Assembly (NCBI GenBank): GCA_913046215.1
Contig: CAJWRJ010000007.1
Location: forward strand, 1-53,905
DNA length: 53,905 bases
From: an uncultured Legionellales bacterium
GTDB lineage: Bacteria > Pseudomonadota > Gammaproteobacteria > Eutrophobiales > Eutrophobiaceae
Direction: 5' to 3'
The position numbers were made by a program, and so were the translations under genes. The notes beneath the pieces were generated by a model. It made no database searches. It was not told where the DNA came from and saw only the letters and a program-made list of their open reading frames with translations. Below are positions 33,619 to 44,613 of this stretch, piece after piece (position 1 is the stretch's first letter; every line of letters starts with the position of its first letter).

Positions 33619-34131
33619 TTAGTCATGTGCTGCAAACGGGTGTGATTGCGAACCTTTCTGACTAACAACATCTGCAGCTTTCGGTTCACCTGCTATTGCG
33701 CGTTGAATTGATTCCTTAGTTGCTTGATAGTTATAGTCTTGGATCTTTGCGTCATCCTCAGCAAGCCAATGAATGAAAACACCGACAGAAATGAAGATAT
33801 CATCTGCTTCATTTGCCGGAATAGTGCCATCTTCAACACTATCCATTACTGCCATAGAAACCGCGCGTTGTGCAGGACCGAACATTTGTACAGCCTGTTT
33901 TGAACCTTTGATTGTTACTTTATTAAAAAGTATGGTGTTAGGTTTGCATGCTAAATTTGGTGCAACAACCGCTAACAAAGATGTAAAACCATCCTTATTG
34001 TTGGTTAGAGCATTACAAAATGCTGACTCTGCTGCGCTGCCACGTGGACCCATAATTAAATCTACATGGGCTACTTCATTACCGTCGCCCACTAATGATT
34101 CACCTACTAATACTTTGTTAATGACCGCCAT
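33619..34131 (-). CDS. fae: Formaldehyde-activating enzyme Fae
   Basis: Fae condenses formaldehyde with H4MPT to methylene-H4MPT, the entry step of the C1 pathway. From the ATG at 34131 the protein is 170 residues, the usual length, and begins [25 protein letters not shown]. Conserved segments are [39 protein letters not shown] and [24 protein letters not shown] precedes this ATG. A second in-frame ATG at 34176, also with a ribosome site (AGGTGG), would add a short N-terminus, [14 protein letters not shown]. The leader up to 34308 has an AGGGT/ACCCT hairpin and the palindrome CTAACGTTAG (34194-34203). Confidence 0.97.
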
Positions 34132-34308
34132 TTTGTCTCCTCCTAAAAAGCCAAAGAGTTTTCCTAATATCGACATTTCTGCCACCTATTTTGCTAACGT
34201 TAGTAAAACTTAAGGGTAGAGTTCCCTCACCCTATTCCAAATACTGCTGAAAACCTAACAGGCTTATCAGCTGTATACCCTAAAAATCAAGACGACTAAT
34301 TTAACAAA

Positions 34309-35148
34309 CTAAGTTTTTAGTAAGTAATAAACCAAAAGACTTGCGGCTGTTAAATCAGCGCTTGTGCCAGGATTATAGTTTTTTGTCTTTAGTTCCCTAT
34401 CAAAATCCTTTAAAAATCTCAGTAAGATTTTAGGATCTATAGAATTATTAAATTTCTCAACAATAATCCCACTTTTTATTTTTATTTGTTCGGCTATTTC
34501 ACTTCCATACTTTCGCTCGATATGTGTATCCCTCATCGAACTCAGAAAAGTCAAATAGCACGAAACTGCAGACCATTTTACACTATTCCACCGTTTGTCA
34601 AAATATTTAATGGTTTCAAAACCTACATTAAAAACCTCTGAAAAGTTATTTGAATATTGCAAAGCAACTGAATCACGCTGACTCGCCTGTTTCATCGCCT
34701 GTTTTAATGAGCAATCAGGGGTTTTCATTACATCATTTGTATCGGAGGAACCCAACCCCCCAGGATTTGCTATACGAATTGCCTCAAATACTTTATTTAC
34801 ATCATCTTTTGTGAGTAAAGTTAATGTATTTTCTAGGTTTGCAGTTAATTTCTCAATATTTTCATAGCCTTGCTCTGCAGCCATAATAATAGGTGTAAAA
34901 AGTAGGATCATCCCTAAATTTGTATTGCAAGATACGGCTTTCTGCGTGGCATTAACGCTACTTAAAATTCTTTCTCCTAATGAAAAATCTCTCCGGCATA
35001 GTATTGGGGTTGAAACTTCAGCGCTTCGTATGAAATCACTAGCTATCATATCGTGACCACTGCTATAAAAACTGATATTCCCTGGTTTAAAAGCCTCAAC
35101 ATCTTTTCTAAAACTTTCCATTACAGCTAATTCTATAGGTGAAGTCAT
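34309..35148 (-). CDS. CitG-family (triphosphoribosyl-dephospho-CoA synthase-like) protein
   Basis: This protein of about 279 residues belongs to the CitG/MdcB family that transfers triphosphoribosyl groups to dephospho-CoA. Features include an early KPGNISFYSSGHDM segment, a SVNATQKAVSCNTNLGMILLFTPI region and GGLGSSDTND. In methylotrophs members of this family sit in H4MPT clusters, where they are thought to serve cofactor synthesis rather than citrate lyase; no citrate or malonate lyase genes are here. The ATG at 35148 lies 2 bp after the ligase stop codon; a TTG 6 bp upstream is the alternative. Confidence 0.72.
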   Translation of the reverse strand: MTSPIELAVMESFRKDVEAFKPGNISFYSSGHDMIASDFIRSAEVSTPILCRRDFSLGERILSSVNATQKAVSCNTNLGMILLFTPIIMAAEQGYENIEKLTANLENTLTLLTKDDVNKVFEAIRIANPGGLGSSDTNDVMKTPDCSLKQAMKQASQRDSVALQYSNNFSEVFNVGFETIKYFDKRWNSVKWSAVSCYLTFLSSMRDTHIERKYGSEIAEQIKIKSGIIVEKFNNSIDPKILLRFLKDFDRELKTKNYNPGTSADLTAASLLVYYLLKT

Positions 35149-35150
35149 TA

Positions 35151-36074
35151 TCAATTAGTGCAAGCTGATAGAGAATTATTTTTTGTTATTTTTTTGATAA
35201 ATGACTTAATTAAACAGTCTGAAACATTAAAATTAACTACTTTCTGTAAACCGAACCAAGCAGGAATACTATTAACTTCAATGATATGTAATGAGCCATT
35301 TTTATCCTCTATAAGATCTACACCTGCATAATCAATATCAAGAACCTTACAAGCGGTTTCACTTAAATATGATAATTTTTCATTTAATTCTAATAGCTCG
35401 CAACTAGCGCCACGTGCACGATTTGTAATCCAGTCATTGCTATGCCTAGTCATCGCGGCTTTGGCTGTTCCGTCAACTACTAATACTCTAATATCTTTAA
35501 AATTATCGTCTTTACGTTCAATATATTCTTGCAAATAATATACGCCAGCAAATTTTTCATCATAAATCAAACCTGTTGCTTGATCGATTAAGTGAATCCC
35601 TATACCTTGAGAACCAAATAGAGGTTTCTGTATTATTTTATTATTTTTAATCCATTCCTTTTCTACAATCTGATTTGCTTGTTTTGTTGACTCACAGATC
35701 CATGTTTTAGGAGTTGGAAGCCCGCTATATGCTAGCGTAATACTTGTATATGGCTTATCTACGGTTCGTTCAATTGCCTTTGGTGAGTTGTAAACTACGA
35801 TACCATAATTGTTTAATGTGTGGAGAATGTTAAGTCTAAAAATAACTTGTTCTAAGGTGCCTCCTGGTACGCCTCTAACAAAGACACCAAGAGGAAGAGT
35901 ATCGAAATCAGGTAACTTAATAGTACTATTTTCTCCAGCAATCTGAAGTGAACAATTAGTTAAGGACAAATAACTTGATTCTAAACCATAATTATTCAGT
36001 GATGACTTCAATTGTTCGCCATGCCATCCTGGATCATCGGTAATTATTGCAACTTTTCTACCGATTTTTTTCAA
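35151..36074 (-). CDS. RimK-type ATP-grasp ligase, MptN-like
   Basis: This 307-residue ATP-grasp protein resembles RimK and MptN ligases that add alpha-linked glutamate to tetrahydromethanopterin or related cofactors. It has an N-terminal Rossmann-like part (RKVAIITDDPGWHGEQLK), KPLFGSQGIGIHLID as the ATP-binding loop, YLQEYIE, and VDLIEDKNGSLHIIEVNSIPAWFG carrying metal ligands. It lies 4 bp after mch and 2 bp before the CitG-like gene. The exact substrate in bacteria, which make dephospho-H4MPT, is inferred. Confidence 0.75.
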   Translation of the reverse strand: MKKIGRKVAIITDDPGWHGEQLKSSLNNYGLESSYLSLTNCSLQIAGENSTIKLPDFDTLPLGVFVRGVPGGTLEQVIFRLNILHTLNNYGIVVYNSPKAIERTVDKPYTSITLAYSGLPTPKTWICESTKQANQIVEKEWIKNNKIIQKPLFGSQGIGIHLIDQATGLIYDEKFAGVYYLQEYIERKDDNFKDIRVLVVDGTAKAAMTRHSNDWITNRARGASCELLELNEKLSYLSETACKVLDIDYAGVDLIEDKNGSLHIIEVNSIPAWFGLQKVVNFNVSDCLIKSFIKKITKNNSLSACTN

Positions 36075-36078
36075 AATA

Positions 36079-37050
36079 TTAGCTGTATGATTTATCTAAT
36101 AAATCAAGATCTATTTTTCCAGCATGAAATGTATGGCCTGTAGTTAGTGATGACACAGAGACTTTTGCTGGACTAAATAACATTGGATCAATCTTATAAA
36201 AATCATAATTAACATCTTTAAAAATTTCTCCAAAAGGCTTCCCATAATCTTTTGAGGTGCTACTAGGTAAAGCATTTGCAAGCTCCTCTGCATCTTCATC
36301 AGTTGCTTCAACAAATAATTGAATTTGTCCTGCAAACAATATTGAATCATTAGTACGGCTCATTGCTGTTAAAAAATCATTCGAGGGAGGGCATAAAGGA
36401 GCACTTCCTGCCCCATCGATAATATTTTCAAGAGGAAAATGTAATTCATGAGCTTTATGTAATGAAGTCTCTAGAACTCTACTTATAATCTGAACAGTAC
36501 CCGCTAGACTCGATGTTGGTGTTAAAATTACAGTTAATTCATTATTTTGAACATTACACATTTTTGCTATTTTTGAAGTTAATTCAACCGGCGGGATTCT
36601 ATCCACTTCAATTACGATACATGTTTTACTGGTTGAATCATGATATTTAAGCTCATCAAATAAGGGTTCATTACTACCCGATGTTCTTGCTGGCCCGGAC
36701 CCTAATGCATGAAATGCATCTTTACCTTCTCCATGACTCAAACTCCAGCCTGCATATTGACTTGCAAGGCAAGCCATAACAGGATTTGAACTATGCACGT
36801 CAACATGCCATGACCAATGATGAAAATTAGTTGAGGCGCGTAATTTAACAACACCAAGTCCACCCATGCATATCTCGGCAATTAACCTACCAGCCTCGAT
36901 ACCACCTTTAGCATTAATACCGGCATCAATAATACGTGTACCATCATTAAGATTAGATACATCCAGTCGTAATGATTCGGCATTTACAATCAAATTTTCG
37001 ACCAATGGTGCTGTTAATTTATTTAGACTTAAATTTGTATTTTTACTCAC
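36079..37050 (-). CDS. mch: Methenyl-H4MPT cyclohydrolase Mch
   Basis: Mch interconverts methenyl-H4MPT and N5-formyl-H4MPT in the cytoplasm, between the methylene-H4MPT dehydrogenase and the formyltransferase. The 323-residue length is normal. Conserved segments are DAGINAKGGIEAGRLIAEICMGGLG, WSWHVDVHSSNPVMACLASQYAGWSL, ALGSGPAR and GAGSAPLCPP. The start is GTG at 37050, preceded by GAGG. It sits between two ATP-grasp genes in the biosynthetic operon. Confidence 0.97.
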   Translation of the reverse strand: MSKNTNLSLNKLTAPLVENLIVNAESLRLDVSNLNDGTRIIDAGINAKGGIEAGRLIAEICMGGLGVVKLRASTNFHHWSWHVDVHSSNPVMACLASQYAGWSLSHGEGKDAFHALGSGPARTSGSNEPLFDELKYHDSTSKTCIVIEVDRIPPVELTSKIAKMCNVQNNELTVILTPTSSLAGTVQIISRVLETSLHKAHELHFPLENIIDGAGSAPLCPPSNDFLTAMSRTNDSILFAGQIQLFVEATDEDAEELANALPSSTSKDYGKPFGEIFKDVNYDFYKIDPMLFSPAKVSVSSLTTGHTFHAGKIDLDLLDKSYS

Positions 37051-37081: not shown

Positions 37082-38278
37082 TTACAGTTTATTTGTAGAT
37101 TTAATAGATAGCTCAATCTCTTGTAAACGATGAAATAGTAAGTTTTTTACCTCATCTAACGTATTGGCTTCAGCATATACGCTACACACTGGGTTTCCTG
37201 CTGAAATCATATCTTGAATTTGTAGATCATTATTTTTTAATTTCATTCTTGGTATATCTTTAACCCAATTTGGAAAGTTAGGGGCCCTAAAAAGATCTTT
37301 TTTTGCATAGTAGATTGCATGTCCGTGAATTTTATTGCAATTATATGAAACATTTCTTGGTAGCTTTCCTTGAAAGCAATCAATATGCGCTGCAAATAGT
37401 GAGTATTCATTTTCATGCAGTTCAAATGTAGAGGGTGGACGTGGATTTACATCAATAACATAAATATTATTTGATTCATCAATAATAAAATCCAATCCAC
37501 ATAAACCAAATAATTTTGTTATTTTTGTGAGTTTATTAATTATACAATCTATTTCTTCTTTCTTATCTTTCTGCAGATTCGTAGTAATTGCACCTTCATA
37601 CAAGAATGGCTTTGAAGAAATTTGACTTGGTTTCAGATGTTGATTAATACCAATTAGTTTGGCTTCTTTTCCATTAGCTAAAAATACTGCGCTATAAACT
37701 ATGCCTTTTATATATTCCTGATAATAATACTCACTGCCAGATAATAATTTATCATTAATATCTGATTCAAAAACAACATGCCCTCCTCCCATTCCAGCAA
37801 TTTCCTTAATTAAAAATATAGCATTATCTTTAAAATCAGTCTTACATAATGATGTGAAAGGATGCATAACAGATTCTTTGTTTAGTATATTTGTTAAACT
37901 GACTGGATTCTTAACAAGGTTGATTGTTTCAAGATTGTTACTCAGTACAGGAATATATTCACGAATCTTTTCAATACGATTTGGATTTTTTTCAAAACCA
38001 GAGCCAATGACAACAAGATGTTTGTTTGAATCTTTACTTAATTCTTCGATATATAAATATAATTTACTCTCACTTAAGAAATTATCTATGTGGGGACCAT
38101 TATAAATATGGACTTTTTCTGATAATGATACAGTATCACTGTCCGCATACCGATCAATAATACTAACTTTATATCCAGCCTTTTTGGCAGAAGCCGCTAA
38201 TGCGCGGCCAGATTCAGAAATAATAAGGTAATCGACACTTGAGTGAATCTTATTATTATATTGAGCTGCGGTAACTAT
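37082..38278 (-). CDS. ATP-grasp protein of the H4MPT cluster, no canonical start codon
   Basis: The frame is open from a stop at 38297-38299 down to 37082, and encodes an N-terminal pre-ATP-grasp domain (DYLIISESGRALAASAKKAG, then a nucleotide-like VSIIDRYADSD segment) joined to an ATP-grasp domain (IKEIAGMGGGHVV, YYQEYIKG, IYVIDVNPRPPS). The first in-frame ATG (37867) would remove the whole N-terminal domain, and no GTG or TTG lies before it. The best candidate is ATA at 38276-38278, overlapping the TAG stop of mptG as ATAG, with AGAGG about 10 nt upstream; ATT at 38246-38248 is an alternative. From ATA the product is 398 residues. Likely role: a ligase in H4MPT/MFR synthesis. Confidence 0.7.
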   Translation of the reverse strand: MVTAAQYNNKIHSSVDYLIISESGRALAASAKKAGYKVSIIDRYADSDTVSLSEKVHIYNGPHIDNFLSESKLYLYIEELSKDSNKHLVVIGSGFEKNPNRIEKIREYIPVLSNNLETINLVKNPVSLTNILNKESVMHPFTSLCKTDFKDNAIFLIKEIAGMGGGHVVFESDINDKLLSGSEYYYQEYIKGIVYSAVFLANGKEAKLIGINQHLKPSQISSKPFLYEGAITTNLQKDKKEEIDCIINKLTKITKLFGLCGLDFIIDESNNIYVIDVNPRPPSTFELHENEYSLFAAHIDCFQGKLPRNVSYNCNKIHGHAIYYAKKDLFRAPNFPNWVKDIPRMKLKNNDLQIQDMISAGNPVCSVYAEANTLDEVKNLLFHRLQEIELSIKSTNKL

Positions 38279-39309
38279 AGACTCTTTACCTCTTGATTAT
38301 TATTTTTTTCTAATATTTTCTTATTGCTTACTATAATGCCTGCTTGATTATTGTTTCCTTTACACATAACAAATCTAATTCTTGATTCTGATTGCCATTC
38401 ATTACGTATTTTTTTAAGTGCCTGAAAAGCGATAGTTTCATTAGCGAAAATAGCGAAACCAGTTGGACCCCATGAACTCTGACCGATTCCGCTAGCTCCT
38501 TCTGAATTCAATCTATCAAGTATTGATTTTAAAAAAGGTGAGGTATAGCGCCCTCCTTGTGCTTGCGAAAAATAATCTCCTACAATATTTTGTATTTCTG
38601 TTATTCCCTTACCGAAATCATCACAATTCTTTTCCATAATAGCTGGAAGTATTTGCATAAGCGCTAAACGACATAATGTACCGGAAATATCTTTTTTCAT
38701 TTTAGGTAGTAAATTAAAGACTGCGCGCTCTTTACTTCCATTGATGCCTTGCAGTTCATCATCAAAAATTAAAACTACTCTCCAATGCTCTGGAAATGGT
38801 AAGCGTGTAATGACCGGAGGAATATCTGTATTTTCAGCGCGTCCACCATCTATGACAAAACCACCCTGCATAAAAGTGCCGATTCCAATTCCAGATCGTG
38901 CACCACGGTGCAATATGCTTGCAAAATTTCTTGGATTATAGTCAGTCAAATTATATAAACGGCTTATCGCACATGCGATGGCTAGTGATAATTGTGTCCC
39001 TGAACCAAGTCCAGCATGCTCTGGAATCAGAGAACTAATTGAAAGCTTAACGCCACCATCAATACCAAAATGTGACAAAATCTGTTCTGCATAAGTATCA
39101 GCTCTTTTCGAAAAAATCCCTTTAATATCAATATCATCTGAATAAGATGCGGTTAAAGAGGTCTCGATAGCGGATACAGCAAGACCAATACTGCCAAATT
39201 TTCTTCCCAATCCCCCATGTAAATCCAAAAAACCTAAATGTAGGCGTGCTGGAGCTATTACGCTGACATATTGAGATTTTGCATTTGTTTTTCTCTTATC
39301 CTTGTTCAT
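38275..39309 (-). CDS. mptG: Beta-ribofuranosylaminobenzene 5'-phosphate synthase MptG
   Basis: This enzyme joins p-aminobenzoate (from PabB) to PRPP with loss of CO2, committing to H4MPT. The 344-residue GHMP-fold protein has VIAPARLHLGFLDLHGG, IPEHAGLGSGTQLSLAIACAI (the GHMP glycine-rich loop), RSGIGIGTFMQGGFVIDGG and GIGQSSWGPTGFAIF, all typical of RFAP synthase. It is the first gene of a long minus-strand operon (mptG, ATP-grasp, mch, mptN-like, CitG-like) and is divergent from fmdD, with 95 bp between. Confidence 0.95.
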   Translation of the reverse strand: MNKDKRKTNAKSQYVSVIAPARLHLGFLDLHGGLGRKFGSIGLAVSAIETSLTASYSDDIDIKGIFSKRADTYAEQILSHFGIDGGVKLSISSLIPEHAGLGSGTQLSLAIACAISRLYNLTDYNPRNFASILHRGARSGIGIGTFMQGGFVIDGGRAENTDIPPVITRLPFPEHWRVVLIFDDELQGINGSKERAVFNLLPKMKKDISGTLCRLALMQILPAIMEKNCDDFGKGITEIQNIVGDYFSQAQGGRYTSPFLKSILDRLNSEGASGIGQSSWGPTGFAIFANETIAFQALKKIRNEWQSESRIRFVMCKGNNNQAGIIVSNKKILEKNNNQEVKSL

Positions 39310-39752: not shown

Positions 39753-39780
39753 TAACGTTAAATAAACAAGAAACAAAACT

Positions 39781-41184
39781 ATGACTGAACAAAAAAGTAA
39801 TAAAAAAACAGAAGAGCAAAATAAAAATATTAAGATTGTCAAAGATGCGACCTGCACATTCTGTGGTTGTGTATGTGATGATATGGAATTACATGTAGAT
39901 CTTGATGAAAAAAGAATTATAAAAGCAAAAAATGCGTGCGTACTTGGACGTGCGTGGTTTGCTGAACATACAATTGAAGATGCACCAGCTGCATTGATTG
40001 ATGGTAAAGAAGTATCAGTAGAAGAAGCGGTAGAAGAAGCAGCGCAAACATTAGTTAAAGCAAAATTTCCGATTACCTATGGTCTAAGTGATACTACCTC
40101 TGAAGCCCAAAAACAGGCAGTTGCAATAACAGATTATATAAAAGGTAATATAGATACTACGACTTCTGTGTGTCACGGACCAAGTGGTCTTGCATTTCAA
40201 GGTGTAGGTGAAAGTACGAGCACACTAGGTGAGGTTAAAAATCGTGCAGATTTAGTTATCTACTGGGGAGGTAACCCCGCAGAATCACATCCTAGACATT
40301 TCGGACGCTATGCTGTCACGCCAAAAGGAATGTTCACACCAAATGGTAAGAAAGATCGGACTATAGTGCTAGTAGATGTAAGAAAAACAAAAAGTGCGGG
40401 TGTTGCTGATATTCTTATACGACCAAAACCCGGAAAAGACTTTGAAGTATTATGGGCACTTCGCGCTCTTGTAAAAGGAATTAGTATATCAACAGACATC
40501 GAAAAAGAAACGGGTGTTCCTTTAGAAGTATTAACAGACCTTGTAGAGCGAATGAAAAATTGTCGATTTGGAGTGCTCTTTTTTGGTATGGGGTTAACCA
40601 TGACGAGAGGTCGACATTTTAACTCGGGTGCTTTGCTCGCACTTGCAACTGACCTCAATGAGTACACACATTTCGTCGCTAAACCCGTACGTGGTCATGG
40701 TAATGTTACTGGAGCTGATAATGTAGTCTCATGGCAAACAGGATATCCATTTGGTGTTAATTTCAGTCGTGGCTACCCAAGATTTAATCCGGGTGAATTC
40801 ACAACAGTTGACACATTATCAAATGGAGATGCAGATGCCGCAATGATTATTGCCAGTGATCCTGGTTCAAATTTCCCTAAAAAGGCAATTGAGCATCTAA
40901 AAAATATTCCTGTTGTTGTGCTTGATACTAAAAGTACTGACACAACGAAGCTTGCGCATGTTGCCTTTAAAACTGCAACCTATGGAATAAATACTGGTGG
41001 TACTGTCTATCGTATGGATGATGTCTCTATTCCATTGAGACCTGCATTTGAATCACCTTTTCCTGATGATGAAACAATACTCAAAGCCATAAAAAAACGT
41101 GTGCACGAATTAATATTAAAGAAAAATGATTCTAGAGGTGCTTCAGGAGAAGCAAAAGTAGCAGCAGCAGTAAACCCGCTCTAA
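39781..41184 (+). CDS. fmdB: Formylmethanofuran dehydrogenase subunit B (molybdo/tungstopterin subunit)
   Basis: This 467-residue protein holds the Mo/W active site in archaea, interconverting CO2 and formate. The four [4Fe-4S] ligands are present: Cys25, Cys28 and Cys32 in CTFCGCVCDDM, and Cys53 in NACVLG. The metal-ligand cysteine is Cys131 in SVCHGPSGLA. Long archaeal-like stretches follow: GEVKNRADLVIYWGGNPAESHPRH, FGVLFFGMGLTMTRGRH and PVRGHGNVTGADNVVSW. Bacterial FhcB is usually thought to have lost redox function, so the intact set here is unusual. About 20 polar lysine/glutamate-rich residues precede the domain. Confidence 0.93.
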   Translation: MTEQKSNKKTEEQNKNIKIVKDATCTFCGCVCDDMELHVDLDEKRIIKAKNACVLGRAWFAEHTIEDAPAALIDGKEVSVEEAVEEAAQTLVKAKFPITYGLSDTTSEAQKQAVAITDYIKGNIDTTTSVCHGPSGLAFQGVGESTSTLGEVKNRADLVIYWGGNPAESHPRHFGRYAVTPKGMFTPNGKKDRTIVLVDVRKTKSAGVADILIRPKPGKDFEVLWALRALVKGISISTDIEKETGVPLEVLTDLVERMKNCRFGVLFFGMGLTMTRGRHFNSGALLALATDLNEYTHFVAKPVRGHGNVTGADNVVSWQTGYPFGVNFSRGYPRFNPGEFTTVDTLSNGDADAAMIIASDPGSNFPKKAIEHLKNIPVVVLDTKSTDTTKLAHVAFKTATYGINTGGTVYRMDDVSIPLRPAFESPFPDDETILKAIKKRVHELILKKNDSRGASGEAKVAAAVNPL

Positions 41185-41247
41185 GTCTTATGTACCAGCG
41201 TTAAACTGCAACTATAATAAGAATTACTAAATAGAGGGGTACATTTG

Positions 41248-42888
41248 ATGTCTGCAACAATGCGCATCGTTAATGGTCAGGTATATGATCCAAAAAATAA
41301 TATTAACGGTGAAATAAAAGAGATCTGCATTCAAGATGGGAAGATTGTTGACGCCGTAGATGATGATGCAACAATTATTGATGCAAAGGGCATGGTTATT
41401 ATGCCTGGTGGTGTTGATATTCACTGTCATATTGCTGGACCAAAGGTTAACTTAGCAAGAAAATTAACGCCTGAAGCACGTCGTCATGATGTGCATCCTT
41501 CAACTCCTTTTACTCGCTCAGGTTCTGGCGGCACAACACCATCAACATTTGCAGCAGGATACCGATACGCAACGTTAGGGTATACCACCGCAATGGAAGC
41601 AGCTGTTTCTCCTATAGGTGCGCGGCATGTATTAGAAGAATTTGAAGATACGCCAATCATTGATAAAGGATTCTATGTACTTTTAGGAAATAATATATTT
41701 CTTCATAACTTAATACGCGAAAAGCGTTTTGAAGAATTTGAACAAGCAGTTGCATGGTGGGTAAATGCAACAAAAGCGTACACTGTAAAACTTGTAAATC
41801 CAGGCGGTGATGAAGCATGGAAAGGTAAAAAAAACTCAAATGTAACAGATATAGATGAAAAAACTGGGCCATCTAGTGATATATCTCCGAGACAAATAAT
41901 AGAGGCTTTTGTAAAAACTGTTAATAAACAGGGTTACCCTCACCCACCTCATATTCATTGTAATAATCTTGGTCATAGTGGAAATTACATAACAACACTT
42001 GAAACCATGAAGACTGCGGGTGATCTGCGCGCCCATATCGCACATATTCAATTTCATAGTTACGGAGGGGTAGTTGGTAAAAATCCAATATCAAAGGCTG
42101 CTGAAATAGCTGACTATGTAAATAAGCATCCAAATATAACCTGTGATGTTGGGCAAGTGATGTTTGGTGAATCAACTATTATGACTGCCGATGCTCCTCT
42201 AGCATATGTGCTTAAAGGTCACACTAAAGGTAAATGGGTTAATGCAGATACAGAATGTGAAAGCGGCTGCGGTATTCTTCCTTTCGTTTACCAAGAACAT
42301 CTCTACATGCATACGCTCCAGTGGGCAATTGGATTAGAGTTATTCTTATTATCGGAAGACCCGTGGCGAATAATTTTGTCAACAGATCACCCTAATGGTG
42401 GTTCTTTTATGGCTTATCCCAAACTTATAAAACTTCTAATGGATGAAAAATTCCGTCATGAAGAAATGAAACGAGTTAATCAAAAAGCCTTGCTAAAATG
42501 CTCTCTTCCCGAATTAAAAAGAGAGTACACATTGTATGAAATTGCAATCATTACAAGAGCGGGTCCAGCAAAGGCGCTAGGTTTAGAAACAAAGGGTCAC
42601 CTAGGTGTAGGGGCTGATGCTGATATTACAATTTATGATTTAATGGATGATAAAGAAATGATGTTTAGCACTGCACGATATGTATTTAAATCTGGTGAGC
42701 CAATGATTGCGAATCACGAATTTACAACTGACTCTAAAGGTAAGGTTTACCATATCGCTCCTACATACGATAATAAAATTGAAGAAGTTCTTAAACCATT
42801 TTTTGAAGATTTTTATTCTATAGAATTCTCTAATTATCCTGTTGATGATCATTATCTACATCAACATGAAATTATTAAAACACGATGA
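41248..42888 (+). CDS. fmdA: Formylmethanofuran dehydrogenase/hydrolase subunit A
   Basis: FmdA/FhcA is an amidohydrolase with a dinuclear metal site that interconverts formylmethanofuran and formate. I choose the ATG at 41248 (AGAGGGG upstream) over the TTG three bases earlier. The 546-residue protein has the metal ligands GVDIHCHIAG, the carboxylated lysine Lys181 in YTVKLVNPGG, HPPHIHCNNLGHSGN, IAHIQFHSYGG and STDHPNGG. The formate made here can pass to FmdBD or be released for the formate dehydrogenase encoded downstream. Confidence 0.96.
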   Translation: MSATMRIVNGQVYDPKNNINGEIKEICIQDGKIVDAVDDDATIIDAKGMVIMPGGVDIHCHIAGPKVNLARKLTPEARRHDVHPSTPFTRSGSGGTTPSTFAAGYRYATLGYTTAMEAAVSPIGARHVLEEFEDTPIIDKGFYVLLGNNIFLHNLIREKRFEEFEQAVAWWVNATKAYTVKLVNPGGDEAWKGKKNSNVTDIDEKTGPSSDISPRQIIEAFVKTVNKQGYPHPPHIHCNNLGHSGNYITTLETMKTAGDLRAHIAHIQFHSYGGVVGKNPISKAAEIADYVNKHPNITCDVGQVMFGESTIMTADAPLAYVLKGHTKGKWVNADTECESGCGILPFVYQEHLYMHTLQWAIGLELFLLSEDPWRIILSTDHPNGGSFMAYPKLIKLLMDEKFRHEEMKRVNQKALLKCSLPELKREYTLYEIAIITRAGPAKALGLETKGHLGVGADADITIYDLMDDKEMMFSTARYVFKSGEPMIANHEFTTDSKGKVYHIAPTYDNKIEEVLKPFFEDFYSIEFSNYPVDDHYLHQHEIIKTR

Positions 42889-42895
42889 TTGTTTC

Positions 42896-43795
42896 ATGAA
42901 AATAAAATCTACTGAAATTGATGATACATTTGCTGAAGCTTTTAAAATGTTCGGTAGTAGAATAATTATCACTGCTGAAACAAAGGAATGGGCAATAGCG
43001 GCAGCACAATCAGTAACTGGTTTTGCTACTTCAGTTATAGGGTGTAAATGTGAAGCAGGTATTGAAACTGAAATTTTGCCAGAAAACTCTCCAGATCAAA
43101 GACATGGTGTTAGTGTTTTATTCTTTGCGATGGATAGTGAAAGCTTAGGTAAACGATTAGTTGAGCGTATTGGTCAATCTGTAATGACCTGCCCTAGCAC
43201 ATCTTGTTTCAACGGTATTGATGATGGAAATGAAGTTGGAGTAGGAGGACAGCTTCGATATTTTGGTGACGGTCACCAAATCAGTAAAAAAATACTGAAT
43301 AAAAGATTATGGCGAATACCTGTCATGGATGGTGAGTTTCTAGTTGATGATATTTTTAGAGTAAAAGAAGCAGTTGGTGGTGGAAATATACTTATCATGG
43401 CTAAAGATCAAAACACAGCATTAAAAGCAGCAAAATCTGCAGTGAAGGCAATGCGTGAAGTACAAAATATCATCCTACCTTTCCCAAATGGTGTTGTGAG
43501 AAGCGGAAGTAAAGTTGGCTCTAAGTACAAAGCATTAATTGCTTCTACTAATGACGCATATTGCCCTACCCTATCAAGTGTAGTTGAAAAAACAGAAATT
43601 GGAGAAGGAGTGAACTGTGTTCTTGAGATTGTTATTGATGGTTTAGGGCTTGAGGATGTTGAACAAGCAATGCGTGTTGGTGCTGAAGCAGCCATAAAAC
43701 CAGGTGTAAAGAAAATATCAGCAGGAAATTATGGTGGCGGATTAGGTCAGTATAAAATACATTTACATAAATTATTAGCGAAAGGTGAAAAGTAA
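42896..43795 (+). CDS. ftr: Formylmethanofuran:H4MPT formyltransferase Ftr (FhcD)
   Basis: Ftr moves the formyl group between formyl-H4MPT and methanofuran. I choose the ATG at 42896, giving KIKSTEIDDTFAEAFKMFGSRIIITA, the normal N-terminus, 7 bp after the fmdA stop. The track of conserved segments includes GFATSVIGCKCEAGIE, GQSVMTCPSTSCFNG, LGGQLRYFGDGHQ-like VGVGGQLRYFGDG, and SAGNYGGGLGQYKIHLH near the C-terminus. The protein is 299 residues and its stop overlaps the fmdC start by one base. Confidence 0.96.
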   Translation: MKIKSTEIDDTFAEAFKMFGSRIIITAETKEWAIAAAQSVTGFATSVIGCKCEAGIETEILPENSPDQRHGVSVLFFAMDSESLGKRLVERIGQSVMTCPSTSCFNGIDDGNEVGVGGQLRYFGDGHQISKKILNKRLWRIPVMDGEFLVDDIFRVKEAVGGGNILIMAKDQNTALKAAKSAVKAMREVQNIILPFPNGVVRSGSKVGSKYKALIASTNDAYCPTLSSVVEKTEIGEGVNCVLEIVIDGLGLEDVEQAMRVGAEAAIKPGVKKISAGNYGGGLGQYKIHLHKLLAKGEK

Positions 43796-44613
43796 TGCCC
43801 TTACATCTCAAGCTACATACGCAGCCAGAAGTGCCCTTAGAGGCTGATTGCATTTGTCCCGATAAAATACAATCTTTAAAAGGTAGTGAAATTTCCTCAA
43901 TGATTGTTTTTCATGGAAACCGTCAAGTAAAACTTGGTGAGTTTTTTGATTGCAAGGGTGAGTTTGATGGCGAAATAATTATTGATGGTGATTTAAACAA
44001 TGTGAAACATGTCGGTGCCTCAATGACATTTGGCAAAATCATAATTGAAGGAAATATTGGTCTGCATACTGGAGCAGCTATGCAGGGAGGCGAAATAATA
44101 ATTGAGGGTAACGCGGCTGACTGGTTGGCTGCAGAGATGCAAGGAGGAAAAATCACAGTTAAGGGAAATGCTGGTCATATGACAGGTAGTGGTTACCGAG
44201 GTAGTACTGTCGGTATGCAAGGCGGAGAAATTTTCATTCATGGTAACGTGAAAAATGAGACTGGACATGTAATGCGAAGAGGTTTAATTGTTGTCGGCGG
44301 TGATTCAGGCGATTTTACTGGTGTAAATATGATAGCAGGAACAATTATTGTACTGGGCAATATGGGAATACGAACTGGAGCTGGTATGAGGCGTGGCTCA
44401 ATAATTTGCTTTAATGAGGCGGAAATACTACCAACATTTACACGAAATTGTGTGTACAAGCCCTCATTTATAAAGTTTTATATCAATTATTTAGAAAAAA
44501 ATGGTTTTTCGATTGATTCGTCATATACAAACGGCACTTTTGAACGATGGAGTGGTGATTCAATTGAATTAAATCGTGGAGAAGTCCTTTTATCGCAATA
44601 TAAAAACAAATAA
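43795..44613 (+). CDS. fmdC: Formylmethanofuran dehydrogenase subunit C
   Basis: FmdC/FhcC is a right-handed beta-helix subunit related to the C-terminal domain of glutamate synthase. The 272-residue protein shows repeats of the pattern GxxGxxMxxGxIxIxGN: MQGGEIIIEGN, MQGGKITVKGN, MQGGEIFIHGN, MRRGLIVVGGD and MIAGTIIVLGN. Structural scaffolding for FmdA and FmdB is its known role. It is the last fmd gene before the ferredoxin gene, 51 bp away. Confidence 0.96.
   Translation: MPLHLKLHTQPEVPLEADCICPDKIQSLKGSEISSMIVFHGNRQVKLGEFFDCKGEFDGEIIIDGDLNNVKHVGASMTFGKIIIEGNIGLHTGAAMQGGEIIIEGNAADWLAAEMQGGKITVKGNAGHMTGSGYRGSTVGMQGGEIFIHGNVKNETGHVMRRGLIVVGGDSGDFTGVNMIAGTIIVLGNMGIRTGAGMRRGSIICFNEAEILPTFTRNCVYKPSFIKFYINYLEKNGFSIDSSYTNGTFERWSGDSIELNRGEVLLSQYKNK

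Follow-up and report, generated by a model that had tools for sequence, protein, structure and literature searches.

A conserved AUA codon overlapping the mptG stop as the probable start of a myfA-like gene in a genus of uncultured Legionellales

Where do ribosomes begin on a gene that has an intact enzyme frame and no standard start codon ahead of its conserved core? The question is raised by a minus-strand gene for an ATP-grasp protein directly behind mptG, in a stretch of 53,905 nucleotides from an uncultured Legionellales bacterium (the whole stretch is called the window here, and its genome G000). Our answer, to which we give a probability of about 65%, is that this is a functional myfA-like ligase gene of a methylofuran/H4MPT operon, and that it starts at an AUA codon on which ribosomes finishing mptG would restart at low yield.

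An ATP-grasp gene behind mptG

Preceded by a TAA, the frame of this gene is open from a TCA codon at 38296 down to a TAA at 37084-37082, and it lies at -1 relative to mptG, which ends CTA TAG at 38275. There is no in-frame ATG, GTG or TTG ahead of the conserved core; the earliest is the ATG at 37867 (37865..37867, minus strand), which is internal to the fold and stands 121 codons past the core column. An earlier note, made from the letters of the sequence, had reported both the open frame from 38296 and this first ATG, along with an ATA at 38278-38276 that overlaps the mptG stop as ATAG, and all of these coordinates proved exact on re-reading; the AGAGG that it placed upstream of the ATA is present at 38293-38289. 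It had also described the conserved N-terminal domain as encoded from 38296 down, a description that can be made more precise: counted from the ATA, 16 codons come before the first core strand (YLII), and this stretch is an N-terminal extension and not part of the conserved domain (38231..38278, minus strand). Provided that the ATA (38276..38278, minus strand) is the start, it shares bases with the mptG TAG (38275..38277, minus strand) in a four-base overlap, and the gene occupies 37082..38278, with 398 codons and a TAA stop. A start at the ATG at 37867 would give a protein of 261 residues.

The identity of the gene was judged from the open frame, the protein family and the predicted fold. The window protein has a Pfam ATP-grasp_3 match (E = 6e-22) and a partial match to the tyramine-glutamate ligase MfnD whose score of 41 bits is far under the threshold of 400, as expected of a relative. 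An AlphaFold (AF2) model built from a 14-row alignment has a mean pLDDT of 81.8; its first strand is formed by residues 16-21 counted from the ATA, while residues 1-12 have a pLDDT under 50. A Foldseek search of this model against the PDB returned ATP-grasp enzymes, with the L-amino acid ligase 3vot at the top and PylC and PurK among those that followed, and in its core the protein can be aligned with orthologues in which an ATG lies shortly ahead.

MyfA (OrfY), of which the M. flagellatus protein is the one tested, is described, in excerpts of one report (PMC8141765), as an ATP-grasp protein from an "archaeal-like" gene cluster that has part similarity to MfnD and adds the second glutamate to methylofuran; according to the same excerpts, a myfA deletion was unobtainable in M. 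extorquens and appears lethal. The window gene is like it in its ATP-grasp family, its partial MfnD similarity and its cluster type, which includes a MyfB-like gene. From family, modeled fold and neighborhood, we take the window gene to be MyfA (OrfY), the candidate ligase for the second glutamate of methylofuran.

The surrounding genes, all on the minus strand, place myfA within an H4MPT/methylofuran cluster. Upstream, mptG (38275..39309) belongs to the beta-RFAP synthase family (TIGR00144 passes its cut-off with 180 bits; the equivalog BetaRFA-P_synth scores 197 bits where 328 are required). On the other side lie mch, encoding methenyl-H4MPT cyclohydrolase (36079..37050; TIGR03120, E = 9e-120), a RimK/MptN-like ligase gene that is a MyfB/Orf5 candidate (35151..36074; rimK_fam over the cut-off, MptN_Meth at 221 bits and short of the 350 required), a gene for a CitG-like protein (34309..35154; PF01874, E = 2e-59) and fae, for the formaldehyde-activating enzyme (33619..34185; TIGR03126, E = 1e-73). 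The gene mch was found in 101 of 105 loci with a myfA homologue (flanks of 1.5-2 kb, duplicates included). In three loci (L091, L134 and L138), MyfA and Mch share a single continuous open frame of 691-697 codons, possibly a natural fusion, and more open frames of this size were found. A separate observation concerns MyfA of Crenothrix sp. D3 (L108), which carries at residues about 189-214 an insert of 20-odd residues, the sequence of which recurs elsewhere in its own and related genomes.

The mptG-myfA junction in the genus and its sister genera

The genus of the window comprises six genomes (G000-G005), all with myfA, and the mptG-myfA junction can be read in five of them (not in G003). ATAG was observed at the identical place in all five, and ATA is the sole AUN or NUG codon that they have in common upstream of the core. 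Standard starts are missing ahead of the core in four of the five members; in the fifth, G001, a TTG stands 11 codons past the ATA. The myfA proteins of the four relatives are 48-67% identical to that of the window, and the frame is intact in all five genomes, with third codon positions varying most. The records of the relatives differ in accession prefix and isolate name (SP289, MED1261, bins from ERR598946 and ERR599132, and bin9s, which has the broken junction), though two are bins of one pipeline. As read from these sequences, the AUA overlapping the mptG stop is a fixed feature of the genus and not a sequencing error. Comparison with close relatives, which the earlier note had proposed, bears out its observation; of the explanations that it offered, non-canonical initiation gains support from the conserved ATA, and a mutated start private to this genome is refuted by it.

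Two other features of these genomes were noted. In G003 (contig C227, locus L006), unrelated coding sequence stands in place of the myfA N-terminus, probably on a mis-assembled contig. In the comparison of the window with G002 (L034), the fhc-region proteins encoded at 39766-44613 are 93-98% identical, against 72% for the adjacent mptG and 65-68% for myfA, an abrupt change that hints at recent recombination.

Between the ATA and the core, the extension is 16, 16, 15, 16 and 16 codons long in the five genomes and contains no in-frame stop in any of them. By dinucleotide shuffling, the chance of such an open stretch is 0.12 to 0.43 per genome, and the product of 0.0008 that would apply to independent genomes overstates the support because the five are related; the true coding support for the extension is weaker than this product. 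Its amino acids are hardly conserved outside the pair G000/G002, as expected for a disordered tail.

Upstream of the ATA lies an SD-like AGAGGT (38288..38293, minus strand). Its AGGT is separated from the ATA by 9 bases in each of the five junctions, a constancy partly explained by mptG coding. The predicted duplex with the standard anti-SD is -7.1 kcal/mol in G000 and ranges from -3.9 to -7.2 kcal/mol across the five, G005 pairing weakly at -3.9 kcal/mol. A search of the window's genome for its 16S gene, as the source of its own anti-SD, did not find one, and the standard anti-SD was used in its place. Pairing at least as strong as at the G000 site was seen for 7.7% of 324 20-mers from the upstream coding region. 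The TAG stop of mptG is also kept in all five genomes, which counts for little, as stops are conserved in other genes too.

In the sister genera, another gene starts directly behind mptG in 19 of the 21 loci that have mptG. It is an open frame of 303-305 codons with a stop in L010, L012, L013 and L025 and of 302 codons in L022, and Pfam Mpt_N identifies it as a methylene-H4MPT dehydrogenase gene (E = 7e-32, one locus tested), which we take to be mtdB-like. The earlier note had expected related operons to show ATGA at the position of the window's ATAG; the genus relatives show ATAG, and sister genera mostly have this other gene there. (At two sister loci, L021 and L025, the start of the mtdB-like gene itself overlaps the mptG stop as ATGA, which is the canonical counterpart of the window's ATAG.) In most sister-genus loci myfA follows the mtdB-like gene, whereas the window gene follows mptG, and an in-frame ATG stands just ahead of the myfA core in 23 of the 24 family loci (L010-L033), the exception being L024.

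In the window's genus, by contrast, the mtdB-like gene is gone from the junction. The only mtdB-like matches in the genus were to a paralogue, about 30% identical and located elsewhere, in four of the six genomes; the other two gave no match, and not all of the six are complete. While the gene orders themselves are observed, we infer that the mtdB-like gene was lost together with the original start of myfA, which would explain the layout. Loss of the mtdB-like gene alone does not force a weak start, because the sister locus L027, where mptG adjoins myfA with no mtdB-like gene between them, retained its ATG. The sister genera also bear on how the conserved ATA is to be read: nine of their 21 mptG genes, each followed by another gene, end (T/C)TA TAA and likewise spell ATA in that frame, and because the mptG ending partly dictates ATA, the fact that it is conserved does not independently prove that it is used. 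The case for the ATA as the start is mostly one of elimination, place and conservation combined.

Alternative readings and non-standard starts elsewhere

One alternative would make a start codon unneeded, in that ribosomes slipping by -1 shortly before they finish mptG would produce an MptG-MyfA fusion. In keeping with this, the myfA frame is shifted by -1 relative to mptG and becomes open 19 or 22 bases ahead of the mptG stop in the five genomes, each of which contains a slip motif (A_AAG in G000, G002 and G004, A_AAA_AAG in G001, A_AAT_TTA in G004 and G005), and frameshifting appears to be in use in the same genome, in a gene that is presumably prfB. However, the motif and its position vary among members, G000 and G002 have A_AAG alone, and there is no shared slippery site; such motifs are also frequent at ORF ends, with A_AAR in 48 and a heptamer in 19 of 137 (last eight codons). 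The junction was folded in four of the genomes. That of G002 beats all 200 shuffles (z = -3.25), but G000 (z = 0.14, and z = -1.10 for its downstream part) and G005 (z = -0.21) give no signal; G004 gives z = -1.56, and no structure common to these four was seen. We consider a frameshift unlikely.

Equally unlikely, in our estimate, is a start at a near-cognate codon after the ATA, which in the window genome would be the ATT at 38248-38246 (38246..38248, minus strand). The earlier note had named this ATT as the other choice, and it has some claim to be one: ATT is a known weak start, this one is also present in G002, and it is closer to the core, as the ATG is in sister genera. Nevertheless, ATT is absent from that place in G001, G004 and G005, on reading no SD-like sequence precedes it, and a start there would leave the open extension upstream unexplained, so that it is the weaker choice.

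Far less probable still is a start at the ATG at 37867, with the upstream part unmade or the gene decaying. This ATG is the first standard start, but it would cut off an N-terminal domain that is present in aligned homologues, and for that loss of a conserved domain we rejected it. The first standard start past the core is moreover scattered among the members, at 121, 113, 35, 10 and 90 codons in G000, G002, G001, G005 and G004, and the intact frame with its variable third positions argues against decay. Least credible of all is an ATG hidden by a base-call or assembly error, a possibility raised by the earlier note; the window does come from a draft assembly of 52 contigs, but a shared base-call error is refuted by the identical codon in five genomes of different species.

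As far as can be told from sequence, non-standard starts exist in this genome and genus but are rare. The missing standard start of the window myfA nevertheless goes beyond chance. Among 378 non-overlapping ORFs of at least 100 codons in 454 kb, made up of the window and another 400 kb and amounting to roughly a third of the genome, six have their first standard start at least 40 codons in, and the window myfA is one of them. On reading, three of the other five have a plausible later ATG, one has a frameshift motif and one has a CTG. The ORF with the frameshift motif (G000:C4:38580-39623, minus strand, in L232), which we take to be the prfB mentioned above, contains the usual AGGGGG...CTTTGA site. 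The ORF with the CTG (G000:C2:33651-34523, minus strand, in L224), presumably HpnK-like, is without ATG, GTG or TTG near its N-terminus, and a CTG after GGGAG looks like its start. In addition, infC was found in four of the six genus genomes (L041, L042 on G000:C29, L043 and L044), and in all four an ATT or ATC stands behind GGAGG at the expected start, just past the upstream stop; in the infC of G004 (L041) a TTG follows two codons further on.

Loci of myfA that lack a standard start also occur beyond the genus. A single count was made of 200 myfA loci, from which 25 duplicates, three loci without an N-terminal hit and two running off an edge were removed, leaving 170. Some ATG, GTG or TTG lies between the upstream stop and the core in 157 of these; the codon nearest the core, which is not necessarily the true start, is ATG in 95, GTG in 33 and TTG in 29. 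The 13 loci without a standard start include four of the window's genus, with ATA, and nine others in about four lineages. Three of the nine (L024, L091 and L104) each represent a single MAG, in which errors may be present: L024, the family member outside the genus, has ATA four codons before the core, L091 has ATT, and L104 has CTG or ATC in place of a standard start. The remaining six (L108, L117, L127, L133, L211 and L212) have CTG and lie close to Crenothrix sp. D3, with 71-74% identity to L117; a standard codon is present in at least two members of this Crenothrix-like group, L115 and L130. One methanotroph family contributed 90 loci to the count, six of them without a standard start and one without a recognized core. 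Four further loci had been flagged as start-less and were rejected: L073 and L078 were artefacts of the core-column screen, with TTG and GTG present, L053 (the same as L006) has its N-terminus missing, and L066 duplicates L024.

For mch, used as a control, 118 loci, a few of them duplicates, were given and 112 judged, none of which lacked a standard start. The contrast of 13/170 for myfA with 0/112 for mch (Fisher P = 0.002) is suggestive only, because the 13 genes stem from about five lineages. The gene mptG was unusable as a control, as its N-terminus is missing in most loci and all five cases without a standard start begin at the edge of a stretch. Standard starts missing repeatedly from myfA, and not from mch, point to selection on dose or to a tolerance made by coupling. 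It is possible, though we think it rather less than an even chance, that the myfA start has been weakened repeatedly in evolution and that a low MyfA dose was selected, for instance to keep in check the addition of glutamate to the methylofuran core. If so, the AUA of the genus within the mptG stop would serve as a restart of low gain, sensitive to IF3, by which the MptG:MyfA ratio is set, the Crenothrix-like group would mostly use CTG, and single lineages would use ATT, ATA or CTG.

A proposed restart on AUA and its counterparts in known systems

For the reading that we prefer, a restart on the AUA, the following course of events may be proposed. In the ancestor of the genus, the mtdB-like gene between mptG and myfA would have been lost along with the original ATG of myfA, and the downstream frame would have become continuous with an AUA that the final codon of mptG forms together with its stop. 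Post-termination ribosomes at the mptG UAG would be retained briefly by the weak SD-like AGGT inside mptG, allowing fMet-tRNA to re-pair with the overlapping AUA and translation to restart. The yield would be a small fraction of that of AUG, which would link a low dose of MyfA to the translation of MptG, and, if other bacteria with AUA or AUU start codons are a guide, it should rise when IF3 discrimination is low.

Such a start would matter for annotation, as myfA belongs to cofactor synthesis for formaldehyde oxidation, and gene finders that allow ATG, GTG and TTG only would trim MyfA to 261 residues or miss a marker of the methylotroph pathway. A genus-wide AUA stop/start overlap would also provide a natural test of whether ribosomes relax their choice of start codon after termination.

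AUN codons serve as starts that limit expression in infC and in E. coli pcnB, which have AUU or AUH. The window myfA differs from these in its codon, while the infC of the genus itself seems to start with ATT or ATC; to our knowledge, a stop/start overlap of the ATAG kind is not part of the infC or pcnB cases.

AUA starts are documented for infC, ccpN and citZ of Staphylococcus aureus in one study (PMC13009471), which gives the reporter yield of the ccpN and citZ AUA as ~10% of that of AUG in poor medium, and up to 30% for ccpN in rich medium, and the ccpN start as also conserved in B. subtilis. The window myfA would resemble these genes in using AUA as a start, with the low yield measured for ccpN and citZ as its counterpart. 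According to that study, however, an extended SD precedes infC and ccpN, whereas the SD-like sequence before the window myfA is weak and the AUA overlaps the upstream stop. ATT is a weak codon comparable to ATA, and its yield in E. coli, ~0.3% of that of ATG according to Hecht et al. (cited in PMC10666635), counts against an AUA restart.

Four-base overlaps with termination-reinitiation are general, and ATGA and GTGA pairs are the ones treated in the sections seen of two studies (PMC6728339, PMC10666635). "ATAG" has 0 occurrences in the main text of either, and a literature search limited to open-licence papers found no ATA start inside a stop overlap. The window junction is like the ATGA and GTGA pairs of those sections in its four-base overlap, its downstream frame at -1 and its candidate SD-like site within the upstream gene, and it differs from them in its TAG stop and its proposed AUA start. 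AUA starts are already known, and the window case is a variant in which the AUA lies inside a stop/start overlap.
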